A stretch of 64,000 nucleotides of DNA, taken from NCBI RefSeq assembly GCF_003112735.1, contig NZ_BFBR01000001.1:372001-436000 (forward strand), given 5' to 3'. The notes below the pieces were generated by a model. It had not been told where the DNA came from. It made no database searches and was given only the letters and a program-made list of their open reading frames with translations. The position numbers and the translations under genes are program-made. This document shows, one piece after another, positions 47,624 through 53,120 of the stretch (positions are counted from its first letter, which is position 1; each line of letters starts with the position of its first letter). Source of the DNA: Candidatus Phycosocius bacilliformis. GTDB taxonomy: Bacteria > Pseudomonadota > Alphaproteobacteria > Caulobacterales > Aquidulcibacteraceae.

Positions 47624-47698
47624 GGCCGTGGCCTCCTCATGTCGATAGAAGGAGGTACGCCTGATATTTGGCCGCGGTTACAGGAGATGCGTTGAAGA

Positions 47699-49888
47699 CT
47701 ACTCCGCCGCCACGTGCACCTGCTCGGTGACCTCCGTGACCGTGCCGCCTGCGACCAGCAGCGTACGGTCAGCCCCAGCAATCGCGGCTTCCCTGTGCGC
47801 AACAAAGATACGGGTGCAAGATAGTCCACGTAGGGTCTCGGCAACCCGTGCTTCAGTCTCGGGGTCGAGATTGGCGGTGCCTTCGTCTAGGAACAGAATT
47901 GTCGGTTCGCGGTAGAGCGCGCGGGCAAGAAGCACGCGCTGCTGCTGCCCACCAGACAGGGTGGAGCCCAGATCACCCACCAAAGTCATCGTGCCCATTG
48001 GCATCTTGAGAATATCATCCAACACGCATGCCTTGGCCAAGCATTCTTCCACTTTCGCCATATCGTGATCTGCATCGAAGAAAGAGACATTGTCGGCAAT
48101 CGTGCCTGCCAGCAGGCGATCATCTTGTAAGACAGCGCCGATGCGATGCCGGAATGTGCGCACGCCAAAATTCTTGAGGCCCACCCCTTCAACCTTCACT
48201 TCCCCTTCGGTGGGATCAAGCAGGCCCAGAAGAACCTTCATCAAAGTCGTCTTGCCACCGCCGGACGGGCCAATGATGGCAACAAATTGGCCGGGGTCGA
48301 TGGAGAAGCTGGCATCCTTGAACACCAAGGGCTCGTGAGTTGCATAACGGAAAGAGAGTTTGTCGGCCCCAATACGGCCTTCAAACAAGCGGCCTTCTTG
48401 AATGGGCTCATCCACGCCAACTTCTGGGTCCTCATGCACCACGTCGGCGAGGCGCTCGAGGTGAAGCTCCAACGTCTTCCACTGGAAATAGATGCCAATG
48501 AGGCCGGATAGTGCCCCAGAGAATTGCCCTGCATAGGATTGAAACGCCATCAGCATGCCAAGGCTCATGGTGCCATCAATTACTTGCTTGGCACCCAGCC
48601 ACCAGACGGCAACCCCTTGCAGGCCTGTAACAATCCCAAGCCCCGCCCCGCCCCACAGGCCGACCCGCTGTATGGTAACGCTATTGTTAACGCTGGCTGC
48701 CATATCATTCTGCCATTGGCTGACCCGTTCGCGCTCTTTGCCGAATAGCTTAAATGTCCGCGCGCCGCGCAAAGTCTCCATGAACGTCGTCGACTCAACT
48801 GCCCCGAGCGAAATGCCCTCATCGGTCTTGCGCCGCACCCAAGGAAAGGTGACGGCTTGAACGATTACGGGGATGACCATACTGGCTATTACACAGCCAA
48901 ACAGCAGTGGCGAATAGAGCACCGCCATTGTGCCACCGACCACCAGCATGATGACGTTCAAAGTTGCGCCAATTGGCACGCTGGTCAAGAAACTTTGTAC
49001 TGGTCCGAGCGAGCCAAACCGGCTCATAATGTCGCCAATATGACGCTTCTCAAACCACGCCACGGGCAAGCGCAGGGCATGGCGCAACAGATTGCTCTGC
49101 ATCTGAAAGTTAAGCTGCGTGCCCAGATACATGCCGACAAAGCCTTGCAAGAGGCCAATGCAGGTCTGGATCAGAAGCAAGATCACCATGCCCGTGCCAA
49201 TGGTGGTCAGAAGGTCCATATCGCCTTTGGAAATGGCATCATCAATGATCAATTGGTTCAGCATCGGGCTGAATACGCCAATCACTTGCACGACAAGGGC
49301 TAGCAGGAAGAGCTGGATGACAGGGCCTTTGAGGCCCTTCAGCGTGCTCCAGAGATCAGACAGTCGAACCCGCTCGACGTGCTTCTTCTTGGTAAAAGCG
49401 GGTGTAGGTGTCAGTTCCAGCGCCACACCGGTGAAGGAACGCCCAATCTCTGCGGGGGCGACTTTGCGCACACCGCGCGCGGGGTCATGAATAACGGCCC
49501 AAATTCCGCCTGGCCCATTCCAAGCCTTTTTTAGCACGACATAGTGGGATAAATTCCAATGCAGCACACAAGGCGGCTTGAGGCTCGGTAATTCATCGAC
49601 TTCTAACCGCAAGGGCCTACCCACCATGCCCAGCCCGTCGGCCATATCCATGACGCTTTTGAGGGTCGTGCCCTTCAGGCTGGCGCTGAATTTGCGGCGA
49701 AGATCAGAGAGCGTGTGACGTTGGCCATGGGCGGCGGCAACCATGGCAAGGCAGGTCAAGCCACACTCCGCCGCCTCTGCCTGCAGGATCATCGGCAGCT
49801 TGTCGGAGTGGAACAGACGGGTCAGCCACATGCGGCTTTCGTCGTGGGAGTTTATGCCGGAGTTTAGATCACTTACATTGTTGCGCAA
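47699..49888 (-). CDS. Peptidase C39-containing ABC exporter (CvaB/LagD type)
   Basis: 729 residues in three parts. The N-terminal C39 peptidase has Gln36, Cys42 (QAEAAECGLTC), His115 (NLSHYVVL) and Asp135 (HDPA), a complete catalytic set. Next comes a six-helix type-1 exporter membrane domain (about 185-470). The C-terminal ATPase has Walker A (GPSGGGKTT), signature LSGGQQQR and Walker B (ILFLDEGTANLD). Such exporters cut a double-glycine leader and pump the mature peptide across the inner membrane. The divergent gene at 50090 has exactly such a leader, and an HlyD adaptor gene follows in that operon. An alternative start is the ATG at 49831 (MWLTRLF). Confidence 0.93.
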   Translation of the reverse strand: MRNNVSDLNSGINSHDESRMWLTRLFHSDKLPMILQAEAAECGLTCLAMVAAAHGQRHTLSDLRRKFSASLKGTTLKSVMDMADGLGMVGRPLRLEVDELPSLKPPCVLHWNLSHYVVLKKAWNGPGGIWAVIHDPARGVRKVAPAEIGRSFTGVALELTPTPAFTKKKHVERVRLSDLWSTLKGLKGPVIQLFLLALVVQVIGVFSPMLNQLIIDDAISKGDMDLLTTIGTGMVILLLIQTCIGLLQGFVGMYLGTQLNFQMQSNLLRHALRLPVAWFEKRHIGDIMSRFGSLGPVQSFLTSVPIGATLNVIMLVVGGTMAVLYSPLLFGCVIASMVIPVIVQAVTFPWVRRKTDEGISLGAVESTTFMETLRGARTFKLFGKERERVSQWQNDMAASVNNSVTIQRVGLWGGAGLGIVTGLQGVAVWWLGAKQVIDGTMSLGMLMAFQSYAGQFSGALSGLIGIYFQWKTLELHLERLADVVHEDPEVGVDEPIQEGRLFEGRIGADKLSFRYATHEPLVFKDASFSIDPGQFVAIIGPSGGGKTTLMKVLLGLLDPTEGEVKVEGVGLKNFGVRTFRHRIGAVLQDDRLLAGTIADNVSFFDADHDMAKVEECLAKACVLDDILKMPMGTMTLVGDLGSTLSGGQQQRVLLARALYREPTILFLDEGTANLDPETEARVAETLRGLSCTRIFVAHREAAIAGADRTLLVAGGTVTEVTEQVHVAAE

Positions 49889-49918
49889 TAGATGTTCCGA
49901 TTACTGGGTACTCCGCTT

Positions 49919-49956
49919 CAGCTGTACTTCGCAAAGCCGCAGCTGTACCTCACAAA
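49919..49956. repeat. Tandem direct repeat in divergent promoter region
   Basis: CAGCTGTACTTCGCAAA (49919-49935) and CAGCTGTACCTCACAAA (49940-49956) match at 15 of 17 positions and start 21 bp apart, two helical turns. They lie between the exporter gene and the precursor peptide gene. A TTGACA box (49986-49991) lies just downstream toward the precursor gene. This layout suits activation or repression of the export locus by a dimeric regulator. Confidence 0.5.
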
Positions 49957-50089
49957 TTTGTGTCTGCGTGGTTAACGAACGCAACTTGACATACCCTCCC
50001 CGAGCCCGTCAACTTTACTCACGGTCGATTAGGCCGCGGAACACAGAGATGTGATATCCAATTTTAACATCTATGATGGAGCTGAAGTT

Positions 50090-50473
50090 ATGCGCGTATT
50101 GACGGTCGATGAAGTTAGGTATGTTAGCGGCGGAAATAGTCCCCCTCCTGCCCCACCAGCTCCGAGCACACCCTCAAAGCCTGCTGAAAAACCCAAGGAA
50201 GAAGACCGGCAGGTCGAAACCGTGGTGGTCGTTGGAGTCCGTGGGCCAACTGGAGTAGGCGGCTTCGTCGGAGGCGGTTGGATTGGCGGATCAGTTGGTC
50301 GACCTGGCGTTGTGGTTCAGCCTGTGAAGCCAGCAGACCCTGAAAAGCCAGAAGTCAAAGTAGAAGTGCAGCCAGATGCGATTGATGTTATGGTGCCAGT
50401 CAACACGTCAAGGGAAGCACGGCAACGCTTCTGGGGCCGAGCCTTCGGAACTCCGCCTGCTGCAATCCCATAA
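50090..50473 (+). CDS. Double-glycine leader precursor with Pro/Gly-rich core
   Basis: 127 residues from the ATG at 50090; GGAG is eight bases upstream, so the open frame back to 50051 is rejected. The leader MRVLTVDEVRYVSGG ends in Gly-Gly and has the hydrophobic spacing expected by C39 peptidases. The predicted 112-residue core starts NSPPPAPPAPSTPSKP, has a charged KPKEEDR segment, then a VVVVGVRGPTGVGGFVGGG region with glycine zippers. It ends FWGRAFGTPPAAIP. The core has no Cys, so no lanthionine, sactionine or disulphide linkage is expected. I know no family for it. The exporter, ClpP-like lipoprotein and HlyD genes adjoin. Confidence 0.75.
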   Translation: MRVLTVDEVRYVSGGNSPPPAPPAPSTPSKPAEKPKEEDRQVETVVVVGVRGPTGVGGFVGGGWIGGSVGRPGVVVQPVKPADPEKPEVKVEVQPDAIDVMVPVNTSREARQRFWGRAFGTPPAAIP

Positions 50474-50513
50474 AGCGTTTTGAAAAGCTAATGGACCTGT
50501 AGAGGCAACTTGG

Positions 50514-50550
50514 CGACCTACTTTCCGGAAATTTTTGGATAAGTAGGTCG
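50514..50550. other. Long inverted repeat between precursor and lipoprotein genes
   Basis: CGACCTACTT (50514-50523) and AAGTAGGTCG (50541-50550) are perfect 10-bp arms around a 17-base AT-rich centre whose ends (TCC, GGA) can extend the stem with a one-base bulge. No T run follows, so it is not a standard terminator. It may set the ratio of precursor to downstream transcripts or be an operator. Confidence 0.45.
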
Positions 50551-50603
50551 TCGTACTGTGTCTAAACGCCTCAATTTTGCTGGCTAAGGGGAATTAAAAG
50601 TCT

Positions 50604-51395
50604 GTGAAAACAATACCAACATTTGCAGTGCGAATAGCTTGTTCGGTGTGTCTATGCTTCTCTTCAGGGTGTATGTCGCGACCCGTCATTGAGTATTCAG
50701 GACCCATTACGCAAACCAACATCAAACCAGTTTTGGAAGCGCTAGATCGCGACAGCCATTACACACTCCGTATACGTAGTTTGGGGGGTGATGGATCAGC
50801 AGGCATCGCTCTAGCCGAAAAAGTTCAGGAACGAAAGATACCGGTAGTAATATATGACTATTGTGGATCAGCATGTGCCTTGGTCTTTATTGCTTCGCCG
50901 GAAAAGAGGGTCGAGCCAAACACGGCGCTTTTATTTCATTGGAGTATGAACTCTCATGCAGATTTTCTTACGAGTCGACTCGGCAAACTGAATCCAGAAG
51001 TCGAAAAAGCTCGCGATCTAGCAACGCGCGAACTTCAAATTCTTGAGAGGGCTGGTATTTCGAATGATCTGCTGAAGGATTCCATCAAACTGGTCGAGCC
51101 GACCTGCGTGAGCGCTGAAATCGAGAACGGACAGTTAAACTACTTCGGTCGATCAAAATTGGGATTTGTAGTGTTTTCGAGGGACGCTCTGAAGCAGTAT
51201 GGGTTTCAGATAAAGGCGGGCAGAAATCTCATTGATACTGCGGCTGACTTGGACAAGGTTGCATCAAAGCGGCCTGAATGGGGTCCGGTTGGGTTTGTTG
51301 CTTCTCGTGCTGTTTCTGATCAAATTGAGTACGCGCATACGATTGCCAACTGTGGCGCAGATGACAAATCCACTCTTCAGCTTCTGAAACAATAG
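50604..51395 (+). CDS. ClpP-fold (COG3904-like) envelope lipoprotein, putative serine protease
   Basis: 263 residues, GTG start, with AAGGGG 12 bases upstream. The N-terminus (FAVRIACSVCLCFSSGC) is a signal peptide; Cys23 may be lipid-modified, though the lipobox is not ideal. The body shows LRIRSLGGDGSAGIALAEKV, then VVIYDYCGSACALVFIAS with Ser89, then ALLFHWSMN with His112. Ser and His are 23 residues apart, close to ClpP, so a ClpP/crotonase-fold peptidase is likely. No chaperone-binding features are seen. The gene is visibly more AT-rich than its neighbours. It precedes HlyD by six bases and may act on the exported peptide. Confidence 0.7.
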   Translation: MKTIPTFAVRIACSVCLCFSSGCMSRPVIEYSGPITQTNIKPVLEALDRDSHYTLRIRSLGGDGSAGIALAEKVQERKIPVVIYDYCGSACALVFIASPEKRVEPNTALLFHWSMNSHADFLTSRLGKLNPEVEKARDLATRELQILERAGISNDLLKDSIKLVEPTCVSAEIENGQLNYFGRSKLGFVVFSRDALKQYGFQIKAGRNLIDTAADLDKVASKRPEWGPVGFVASRAVSDQIEYAHTIANCGADDKSTLQLLKQ

Positions 51396-51401
51396 TAGGC
51401 A

Positions 51402-52865
51402 ATGACCCTCTTCCGCCCCGCCGTCATTGAAGCCCAGCGCCGCCGTGTTTACGGCAGCGTAACACTGCATCAGCCCGCCAGATTGGCAGCATTCACGGCA
51501 GTAGCGGTCATCAGCGTTGCCATTGGCACGGTCTATCTGGCACTTGGCCAATATGCACGCAAAGAGACCGTAGCAGGGTGGATTGCGCCAGAGGCGGGTT
51601 TATCGGCTGTCTATGCGCCGCGTGGCGGGGTGGCAGATGCCGTGCTGGTCCGCCAAGGGGATCTGGTGGCTGAGGGCCAGCCTTTGATGCGGCTTGCTTT
51701 GGATGTGTCAGGGGCTGACGGTGCCGTGGTACCACTGCAGCGAGCACAGACCCGGGCGCGGTTGACCGAGATTGAGCTGCAGGCCGCCGCCAGCGCCCAA
51801 CGCTTTGCCGAAGAGAGCCGCAGGCTTGCAGAACGGGCGAGTGCCACGCTCGACCGCTTTGCAGCCGAAGATGCGCGCCTAATGGAGGCGGCACGCGGCA
51901 ATGCCAATCGCTTTACCCAGGATGATGCGCGCTTAGCTGATCGTGCGATGGCCGCCCGCGCCGACGCCAGCCGCCTTGAGGCCAGCCGCGAGCTGGCTCA
52001 AGGCCAATTGGCCATCTCTGAACGCGCCGAAGCCCAAGCCCGAACCTTAGTATCCAAAGGCTATATGGCGAGCACCGAGGCTGATCGGCGGGCACAAGCC
52101 AGTATTGCTGCCCGCGCCCAATTGGGCGACCTTAACCGGCAAATCCAATCCCGCCTTGACGAGGCCAAGGATTATGACCGCCAGCGCCAATCCCTTCGCG
52201 CCACCCATCAAGCCGAACTGGCCGACATCGCTCGCCAACGTGCCACTCTTGCCGCGTCACGTTCTGGCGAGACCAAAGACCTGATGCGTCAACGTCAAGC
52301 CCTTGAGCCTGCGCGCGCTTCTGAAGCCAGTCAGCTGCGCAGTGCTAAGACACAATTGGAAACGGGGCTGACCGAGCTTTCGGTGCAGGACGGCTATGTC
52401 GTGCGTGCCCCCGTTGCGGGCCGGGTGGCGAGCCTCAATATCCGCCCCGGCGAAGCAGCCAACCCCAATGTGCCCTTGATCAATCTCTCGCCCAAGGGCA
52501 GCCCGATGGAAGCACAAATCTTGGTGCCTACGCGTGCGGCGGGCTTCATCACCGAAGGCCAGCGCGTGCGCCTGATGGTCGATGCCTTTCCGTTCCAGCA
52601 ATTCGGGGCCATTCAAGGCGAAGTGCGCGAAATCGCCCGCTCAGCCCTACGCCCCGGCGAAATTGCAGCGCCTATCGAGTTCAAAGAACCCGTCTACCGC
52701 ATCCGCGTGGCGCTGACTGGCCCCGGCATCCAAGCCTACGGCAAAGACCGCCCCCTCCAGCCCGGCATGACGTTGAAGGCCGATGTCATCACCGACAAAC
52801 GCACTTTCATGAGCTGGCTGCTTGATCCACTTCTTGCGGCGCGGGCTAGGGCCGCGGCGGGATAA
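51402..52865 (+). CDS. HlyD-family membrane fusion protein
   Basis: 487 residues. A single N-terminal membrane segment (AAFTAVAVISVAIGTVYLAL) is followed by a split lipoyl domain (VYAPRGGVADAVLVRQGDLV and VVRAPVAGRVASLNIRPGE). A very long Ala/Arg/Glu-rich coiled coil (about residues 110-330) lies between the halves. The beta-barrel and C-terminal region follow (FQQFGAIQGEVREIA, LQPGMTLKADVITDKRTFMSWLLDPL). These proteins link an inner-membrane ABC exporter to an outer-membrane channel. The partner exporter is the C39 ABC gene; no TolC-like gene is in the window. The stop abuts the DUF2164 stop from the opposite strand. Confidence 0.93.
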   Translation: MTLFRPAVIEAQRRRVYGSVTLHQPARLAAFTAVAVISVAIGTVYLALGQYARKETVAGWIAPEAGLSAVYAPRGGVADAVLVRQGDLVAEGQPLMRLALDVSGADGAVVPLQRAQTRARLTEIELQAAASAQRFAEESRRLAERASATLDRFAAEDARLMEAARGNANRFTQDDARLADRAMAARADASRLEASRELAQGQLAISERAEAQARTLVSKGYMASTEADRRAQASIAARAQLGDLNRQIQSRLDEAKDYDRQRQSLRATHQAELADIARQRATLAASRSGETKDLMRQRQALEPARASEASQLRSAKTQLETGLTELSVQDGYVVRAPVAGRVASLNIRPGEAANPNVPLINLSPKGSPMEAQILVPTRAAGFITEGQRVRLMVDAFPFQQFGAIQGEVREIARSALRPGEIAAPIEFKEPVYRIRVALTGPGIQAYGKDRPLQPGMTLKADVITDKRTFMSWLLDPLLAARARAAAG

Positions 52866-53120
52866 TCACTTCCGGCGTCGCCAGTAGGTAAAGGGTTCTT
52901 GATAGATGTCTTGGTCCAATTCGGTGATCAGGCCTTGCAGGCGGGCTTGGGCGTCTTGGACGCCTTGATTGTAGAAAAGTGGGCCGAGGTCTTGGGCGAT
53001 GAAGTCAAGCAGGGCTTCAATCGCCAAATTGCCGACGGGCTCATCAAGATTCTCGGCACAATATTGGCTGAGAGCTTTGATGGCATCCTGACGCTGATCC
53101 CGGGGCAAAGAAGGCATCAA
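52866..53120 (-). CDS. DUF2164 small protein
   Basis: 84 residues. NLAIEALLDFIAQDLGPLFYNQGVQDAQARL is the DUF2164 core. Function unknown, small and probably cytoplasmic. The start is one of two adjacent ATGs (53120 or 53117). Downstream of pheA on the minus strand with a 20-base gap, so possibly the last gene of that unit. It is immediately convergent with the HlyD gene. Confidence 0.88.
   Translation of the reverse strand: MMPSLPRDQRQDAIKALSQYCAENLDEPVGNLAIEALLDFIAQDLGPLFYNQGVQDAQARLQGLITELDQDIYQEPFTYWRRRK

Follow-up and report, generated by a model that had tools for sequence, protein, structure and literature searches.

Class II microcins of the microcin V (MccV) type are small products that are made with a double-glycine (GG) leader and exported by a C39-peptidase ABC exporter, an HlyD-type adaptor and an unlinked TolC-family protein; the mass limit for microcins is 10 kDa. 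Group B colicins, such as colicin Ia, are large multidomain proteins that lack a cleaved leader and carry a TonB box near the mature N-terminus. MccV is reportedly not predicted to have such a box (PMC12190408). Among Alphaproteobacteria, the contact-dependent bacteriocin Cdz of Caulobacter illustrates small toxins exported by a type I secretion system (T1SS) without a linked TolC; it is a two-protein Gly-zipper toxin with a three-transmembrane (3-TM) immunity protein, and TonB is unmentioned in the paper (PMC5380434). In Gram-positive bacteria, Abi/CAAX proteases offer a case of immunity in which a protease gene occupies the immunity-gene position (compare SilX, PMC9298176). Here we analysed a 64,000-nucleotide stretch of Candidatus Phycosocius bacilliformis (contig NZ_BFBR01000001.1, positions 372,001 to 436,000; the window), in which a C39 exporter gene and an HlyD-type adaptor gene enclose a GG-leader precursor and a ClpP-fold lipoprotein. 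With about even confidence, we read this locus as encoding a microcin-like, T1SS-exported bacteriocin that would enter target cells via TonB, with the ClpP-fold lipoprotein serving as self-protection.

The locus combines features of these systems and departs from each. Relative to the microcin V type, the exporter and adaptor genes point away from each other and enclose the cargo, the core has a TonB-box-like string of its own and the partner is a ClpP-fold lipoprotein; since the mature core (11.6 kDa) exceeds the usual mass limit, we call it microcin-like rather than a microcin. It shares with group B colicins a string near the mature N-terminus (here a sequence match, p=0.0002), but is far smaller, T1SS-exported and made with a cleaved GG leader, and has no colicin domains. 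While the CAAX proteases are intramembrane enzymes, the partner here is an envelope-exported lipoprotein, with S9-type hydrolases in sister cassettes, and its immunity function is putative. Sister cassettes with Gly-zipper cores and small TM partners do resemble Cdz; for the window core a Cdz-type toxin was ruled out, as this is a single core without a hydrophobic segment and has a ClpP-fold partner. The features of the locus, in window coordinates, are as follows.

47640-52876, no strand: whole locus (BLASTN of the congeners' DoxX-PheA regions against the window; contents of the gaps)
47699-49888, minus strand: C39-peptidase ABC exporter of the bacteriocin/type I secretion class (Pfam domains, catalytic motifs, congener copies)
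49986-50015, plus strand: upstream element TTGACAT-C-rich-GTCAACTT, kept in most cassettes of the genus (13 upstream regions aligned)
50078-50081, plus strand: GGAG ribosome-binding site of the precursor (read from the sequence; kept in the alignment of cassette upstream regions)
50090-50134, plus strand: double-glycine leader MRVLTVDEVRYVSGG (near-identical leader in cassettes with unrelated cores)
50135-50473, plus strand: 112-amino-acid (aa) Pro/Val/Gly-rich, Cys-free core, stop included (codon-position pattern against the homologue G006A; composition)
50216-50245, plus strand: within the core, the TonB-box-like string ETVVVVGVRG (scored 16.8 by a matrix from TonB-dependent receptors of the same genome; shuffle p=0.0002)
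50604-51395, plus strand: ClpP-fold exported lipoprotein, the cassette partner, with lipobox SSGC (Cys23) and Ser89/His112 (AlphaFold2 model, ClpP structural matches, invariant residues)
51402-52865, plus strand: HlyD-type periplasmic adaptor (HlyD_3 2.6e-17; 95-96% identical in congeners)

The initial annotation, made from the sequence alone, had described a peptide export locus of four genes, with the precursor, the ClpP-like gene and the HlyD gene divergent from the exporter. All four genes lie where it had placed them, and the export reading holds up on the GG leader, the C39 exporter and the HlyD-type adaptor. The exporter (729 codons, TTG start) matched Peptidase_C39 (PF03412; 5.3e-26, 91.5 bits against a cut-off of 22), ABC_membrane and ABC_tran, and the complete Cys-His-Asp set claimed for it could be located in the motifs AAECGL, LSHYVVL and IHDPARG. 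Assignment to the NHLP bacteriocin exporters (TIGR03796) was ruled out, with 456.9 bits against a curated cut-off of 853.3. The adaptor was likewise confirmed by HlyD_3 (63.9 bits, cut-off 22.2), and scored 149.9 bits with TIGR01843, under the cut-off of 208.65. No TolC-type gene was found within the window, as the initial annotation had remarked; this does not extend to the genome, where five proteins encoded elsewhere contain OEP (TolC-family) domains. Exporter copies are 93-97% identical at the amino acid level in five congeners (two matches partial) and 72% identical in G013, a genome of the same family; the corresponding values for HlyD are 95-96% (four congeners) and 64%.

Congeners have other DNA (~0.3-3.7 kb) between DoxX and the PheA-side genes, where the window has its locus. 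In congeners the exporter and HlyD genes are near-constant (93-97%), while everything between them differs, and a relative of the window precursor occupies that position only in G006. In G003 the core is unrelated and its ClpP-like partner divergent (27% identity), G002 has a core with a 116-aa membrane protein, and the second cassette of G006 encodes a Cys-containing Gly-zipper core with a thioredoxin-like and a DUF6171-like protein, a similar trio being present in G013. G005 carries a tandem of three cassettes and two copies of the exporter gene; here the partners are an S9/S33-type hydrolase of 681 aa, a lipoprotein of 186 aa and an S9-type hydrolase of 659 aa. Across cassettes, the partner slot thus holds a ClpP-like lipoprotein, an S9-type hydrolase, a small lipoprotein, a 2-4-TM protein or a thioredoxin-like and DUF6171-like pair, and cores and partners switch together. 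A fixed four-gene system, as first proposed, is ruled out by these differing cargoes beside near-identical exporter and HlyD genes. The initial annotation had taken homologous exporters beside other substrates as a sign against its reading; such neighbours do occur, and they point to cargo swapping, not a false precursor.

Partner type followed core type. In the genus and G013, the partner of every one of the eight hydrophilic cores begins with a signal-like or lipobox-like sequence and is ClpP-like, of S9 type or a lipoprotein; among cores with hydrophobic segments, four go with a 2-4-TM protein and two with the thioredoxin-like pair, signal peptides and TM segments being called from simple hydropathy and lipobox patterns. 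The thioredoxin-like and small CxxC (DUF6171-like) proteins accompany Cys-containing cores (L029 3628-4283; L023 7775-8412), possibly for disulfide handling.

Scars lie between the cassettes of G005 and G006, in which a 5' fragment of HlyD is fused to a 5' fragment of the exporter gene (L029 1952-2592; L039 15938-16338 and 19044-19382). They would fit insertion of a broken-ended cargo cassette by recombination in the conserved flanks. The two G005 scars have an identical joint, as if one had been duplicated. Orphan cassettes were found elsewhere in G005, G006 and G008, with exporter remnants kept at G006:C46 and G008:C104. A gcvT-like gene adjoins an exporter piece or orphan cassette in G006 and G008 (L042 2474-3634; L094 6161-7324), away from the DoxX-PheA site, and in G006 the site that holds the complete locus in the window contains, on its PheA side, remnants of orphan GG-leader cassettes (L043 1-3345). 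Contig breaks in G006 and G002 fall in repeated genes. The differing genomic locations suggest horizontal transfer of the module, with modest support from nucleotide identity (86-87% for HlyD, 80% for PheA). Neither the precursor nor the ClpP-like protein found a match when relatives were sought on plasmids; more distant relatives of the exporter on Ti plasmids (~52% identity) have as neighbour a gene whose annotation reads 'Blp family class II bacteriocin'.

Because payload and partner are exchanged beside a constant export machine, and because cassettes are stacked and orphans kept, we read the cargo as a toxin/immunity pair. A comparison of the window genome (G000) with G006 shows the partner to be the fastest-diverging gene: identity is 96% for HlyD, 91% for PheA (a core-genome gene), 78% for the precursor and 45% for the ClpP-like protein. 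The initial annotation had also entertained a structural or signalling product. In a version of that idea, the cell would secrete a non-toxic scavenger, signal or surface protein and take it back via TonB-dependent receptors, after which the partner hydrolase would digest it; this would suit the TonB-box-like string, the hydrolase partners and a hydrophilic Pro/Gly core in which no known toxin domain is present. We consider this improbable, since cargo and partner are co-exchanged fast and stacked in tandem, and the partner slot also takes membrane proteins, which is how toxin/immunity pairs behave; cassette exchange makes a toxin the likelier product.

The precursor gene (50090-50473, ATG at 50090) encodes 127 aa. 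G006 has a homologue at the corresponding position (78% identity), and nucleotide differences between the two are concentrated at third codon positions (21, 18 and 56 at positions 1, 2 and 3), so that we regard it as a real gene. Its GG leader and its Cys-free Pro/Gly core, both as initially annotated, were borne out; the core (112 aa) is hydrophilic, has no hydrophobic segment and contains 20 Pro, 19 Val and 14 Gly residues with zero Cys, Leu, His or Tyr. While BLASTP links few cores to each other, the leader MRVLTVDEVRYVSGG and the upstream element are common across cassettes. This element, ~75-105 bp upstream of the precursor start, is kept before most cassettes of the genus, orphans included, and may be a common promoter or operator. 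The alignable stretch of the G002 and G005C3 cores is no longer than 28 residues, and the N-terminal part of the core may form a module. At the other end, the ClpP-type cassette cores of G000, G006 and G003 have in common a C-terminal motif, RQ(R/Q)FWxxAF (window 50405-50470; L020 6305-6739), and are otherwise unalignable; the partner could recognise its core by this motif.

Within the core, we identified a feature that the initial annotation had missed, the TonB-box-like string. The window genome has 38 matches to the Plug domain of TonB-dependent receptors, and the boxes of its own receptors include ETVVVLGTRR, ETIVVVGIRR and EVVVVTGTRV. Using a matrix built from 14 such boxes after the likeness had been noticed, so that the test was not blind, we found a comparable string in 11 of 15 cores (shuffle p<=0.011). 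Of these 15, the genus contributes 14 and G013 the other, and several are mutually homologous, so that they do not count as 15 independent cases. In all 11 cores, the string lies within ~30 residues of the GG. Among 115 control open reading frames (ORFs), none scored >=10 and two scored >=6. Our search of open-access papers, weak as a sign of absence, found nothing direct on TonB boxes in GG-leader bacteriocins.

The partner protein was matched weakly in Pfam (0.014, below cut-off). Its ClpP fold is nevertheless secure, because an AlphaFold2 model from 21 homologues reached a predicted local distance difference test (pLDDT) score of 88.4 and a predicted template modelling (pTM) score of 0.84, and structural comparison placed solved ClpP chains at the top (Z ~13 over 150-160 residues). 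This model supersedes one from three sequences with a pLDDT of 61.5. The Ser/His pair noted in the initial annotation corresponds to Ser89 and His112, which are invariant in the 21 homologues along with G61, G62, C87 and C91, and a lipobox-like SSGC lies at Cys23. A protease beside export genes had been singled out as odd, and this holds up. In an order-wide survey by leader pattern, which is incomplete, nine genomes from five genera had a ClpP-like gene directly 3' of a GG-leader precursor, with mostly unrelated precursors, which argues that the pairing is not accidental. The fold and the invariant GG, CxSxC and His pattern resemble those of COG3904-like periplasmic ClpP-related proteins, although most of the relatives found do not adjoin a GG-leader gene. 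The same open-access literature, with the same weakness as to absence, yielded nothing direct on ClpP-like periplasmic proteins.

Taken together, we propose the following route. A constant export machine, made up of the C39 exporter, HlyD and a TolC-family channel whose gene lies elsewhere, would serve a swappable cargo cassette. The C39 domain would cut the 127-aa precursor after the GG, and the 112-aa hydrophilic protein, predicted to start with NSPPPAPPAP, would be secreted. At a related target cell, the TonB-box-like string could then allow the core to be drawn through a TonB-dependent receptor into the periplasm, in the manner of group B colicins. Co-produced with the core, the ClpP-fold lipoprotein would sit in the producer's periplasm and guard the cell against what it secretes, probably by degradation or binding of the core.

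Several observations weigh against this reading. The string is absent from 4 of the 15 cores (G003, G005C6-3, G008 and G006C72). Beyond the genus and G013, the order-wide cargo survey, which relied on regular expressions for the leader and is incomplete, found it in single cores of G189, G147, G112 and G019, most cores being without it, and a Val-rich string could serve another purpose. Such gaps would be expected if the string were a chance Val-rich beta segment and the locus a class II bacteriocin cassette of the ordinary kind, whose product enters by another route. We think this unlikely, given the low shuffle p values, the near-empty control set and the recurrence of the string close to the GG cut in cores mostly unaligned by BLASTP. 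As for the partner, no conserved Asp column completes a triad in its homologues, so that protease activity is putative; many ClpP-like relatives sit apart from any GG-leader locus; and a protease in the partner slot would suit maturation or release nearly as well as protection.

This last point underlies a further alternative, in which the locus is of the same bacteriocin type, the ClpP-fold lipoprotein, like the S9-type hydrolases of sister cassettes, acts in the envelope as an additional processing enzyme by which the core is trimmed or released, and immunity is provided otherwise. Two unrelated serine-hydrolase folds in one slot, the invariant Ser89 and His112, and the C-terminal motif of the G000, G006A and G003 cores (RQRFWGRAF / RQQFWEGAF) as a possible cleavage site would all accord with it. 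Yet 2-4-TM proteins or small lipoproteins fill the same slot in other cassettes, and the ClpP cassettes contain no second candidate immunity gene. Moreover, T1SS secretion bypasses the periplasm, and a periplasmic protease would therefore meet the incoming rather than the outgoing product. We accordingly give this alternative a minor share of our confidence. Trimming, as the initial annotation had suggested, may be the task of the lipoprotein, but self-protection appears likelier because the slot is exchangeable, holding membrane proteins, lipoproteins, S9-type hydrolases or the thioredoxin-like pair. The statement that no immunity gene is seen is therefore doubtful: the ClpP-like gene, whose role is probably self-protection, occupies the place that holds immunity-like genes in other cassettes.

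To our knowledge, immunity through a ClpP-fold lipoprotein would, if true, add a new form of self-protection to those of Gram-negative bacteria. More tentatively, the cassettes may represent, in this alphaproteobacterial order, a class of small GG-leader bacteriocins with a TonB box of their own, joining microcin-type secretion to colicin-type entry, in which cassettes are swapped and stacked and ClpP-like and S9-type envelope hydrolases would act as proteolytic immunity. If our reading is true, small exported bacteriocins would have a natural way to carry their own TonB-engagement signal, a question that the structure paper on MccV and Cir (PMC12190408) did not settle for microcins, and the cassette series, with its many cores, common entry region and different remainders, would make entry and immunity separable and testable.

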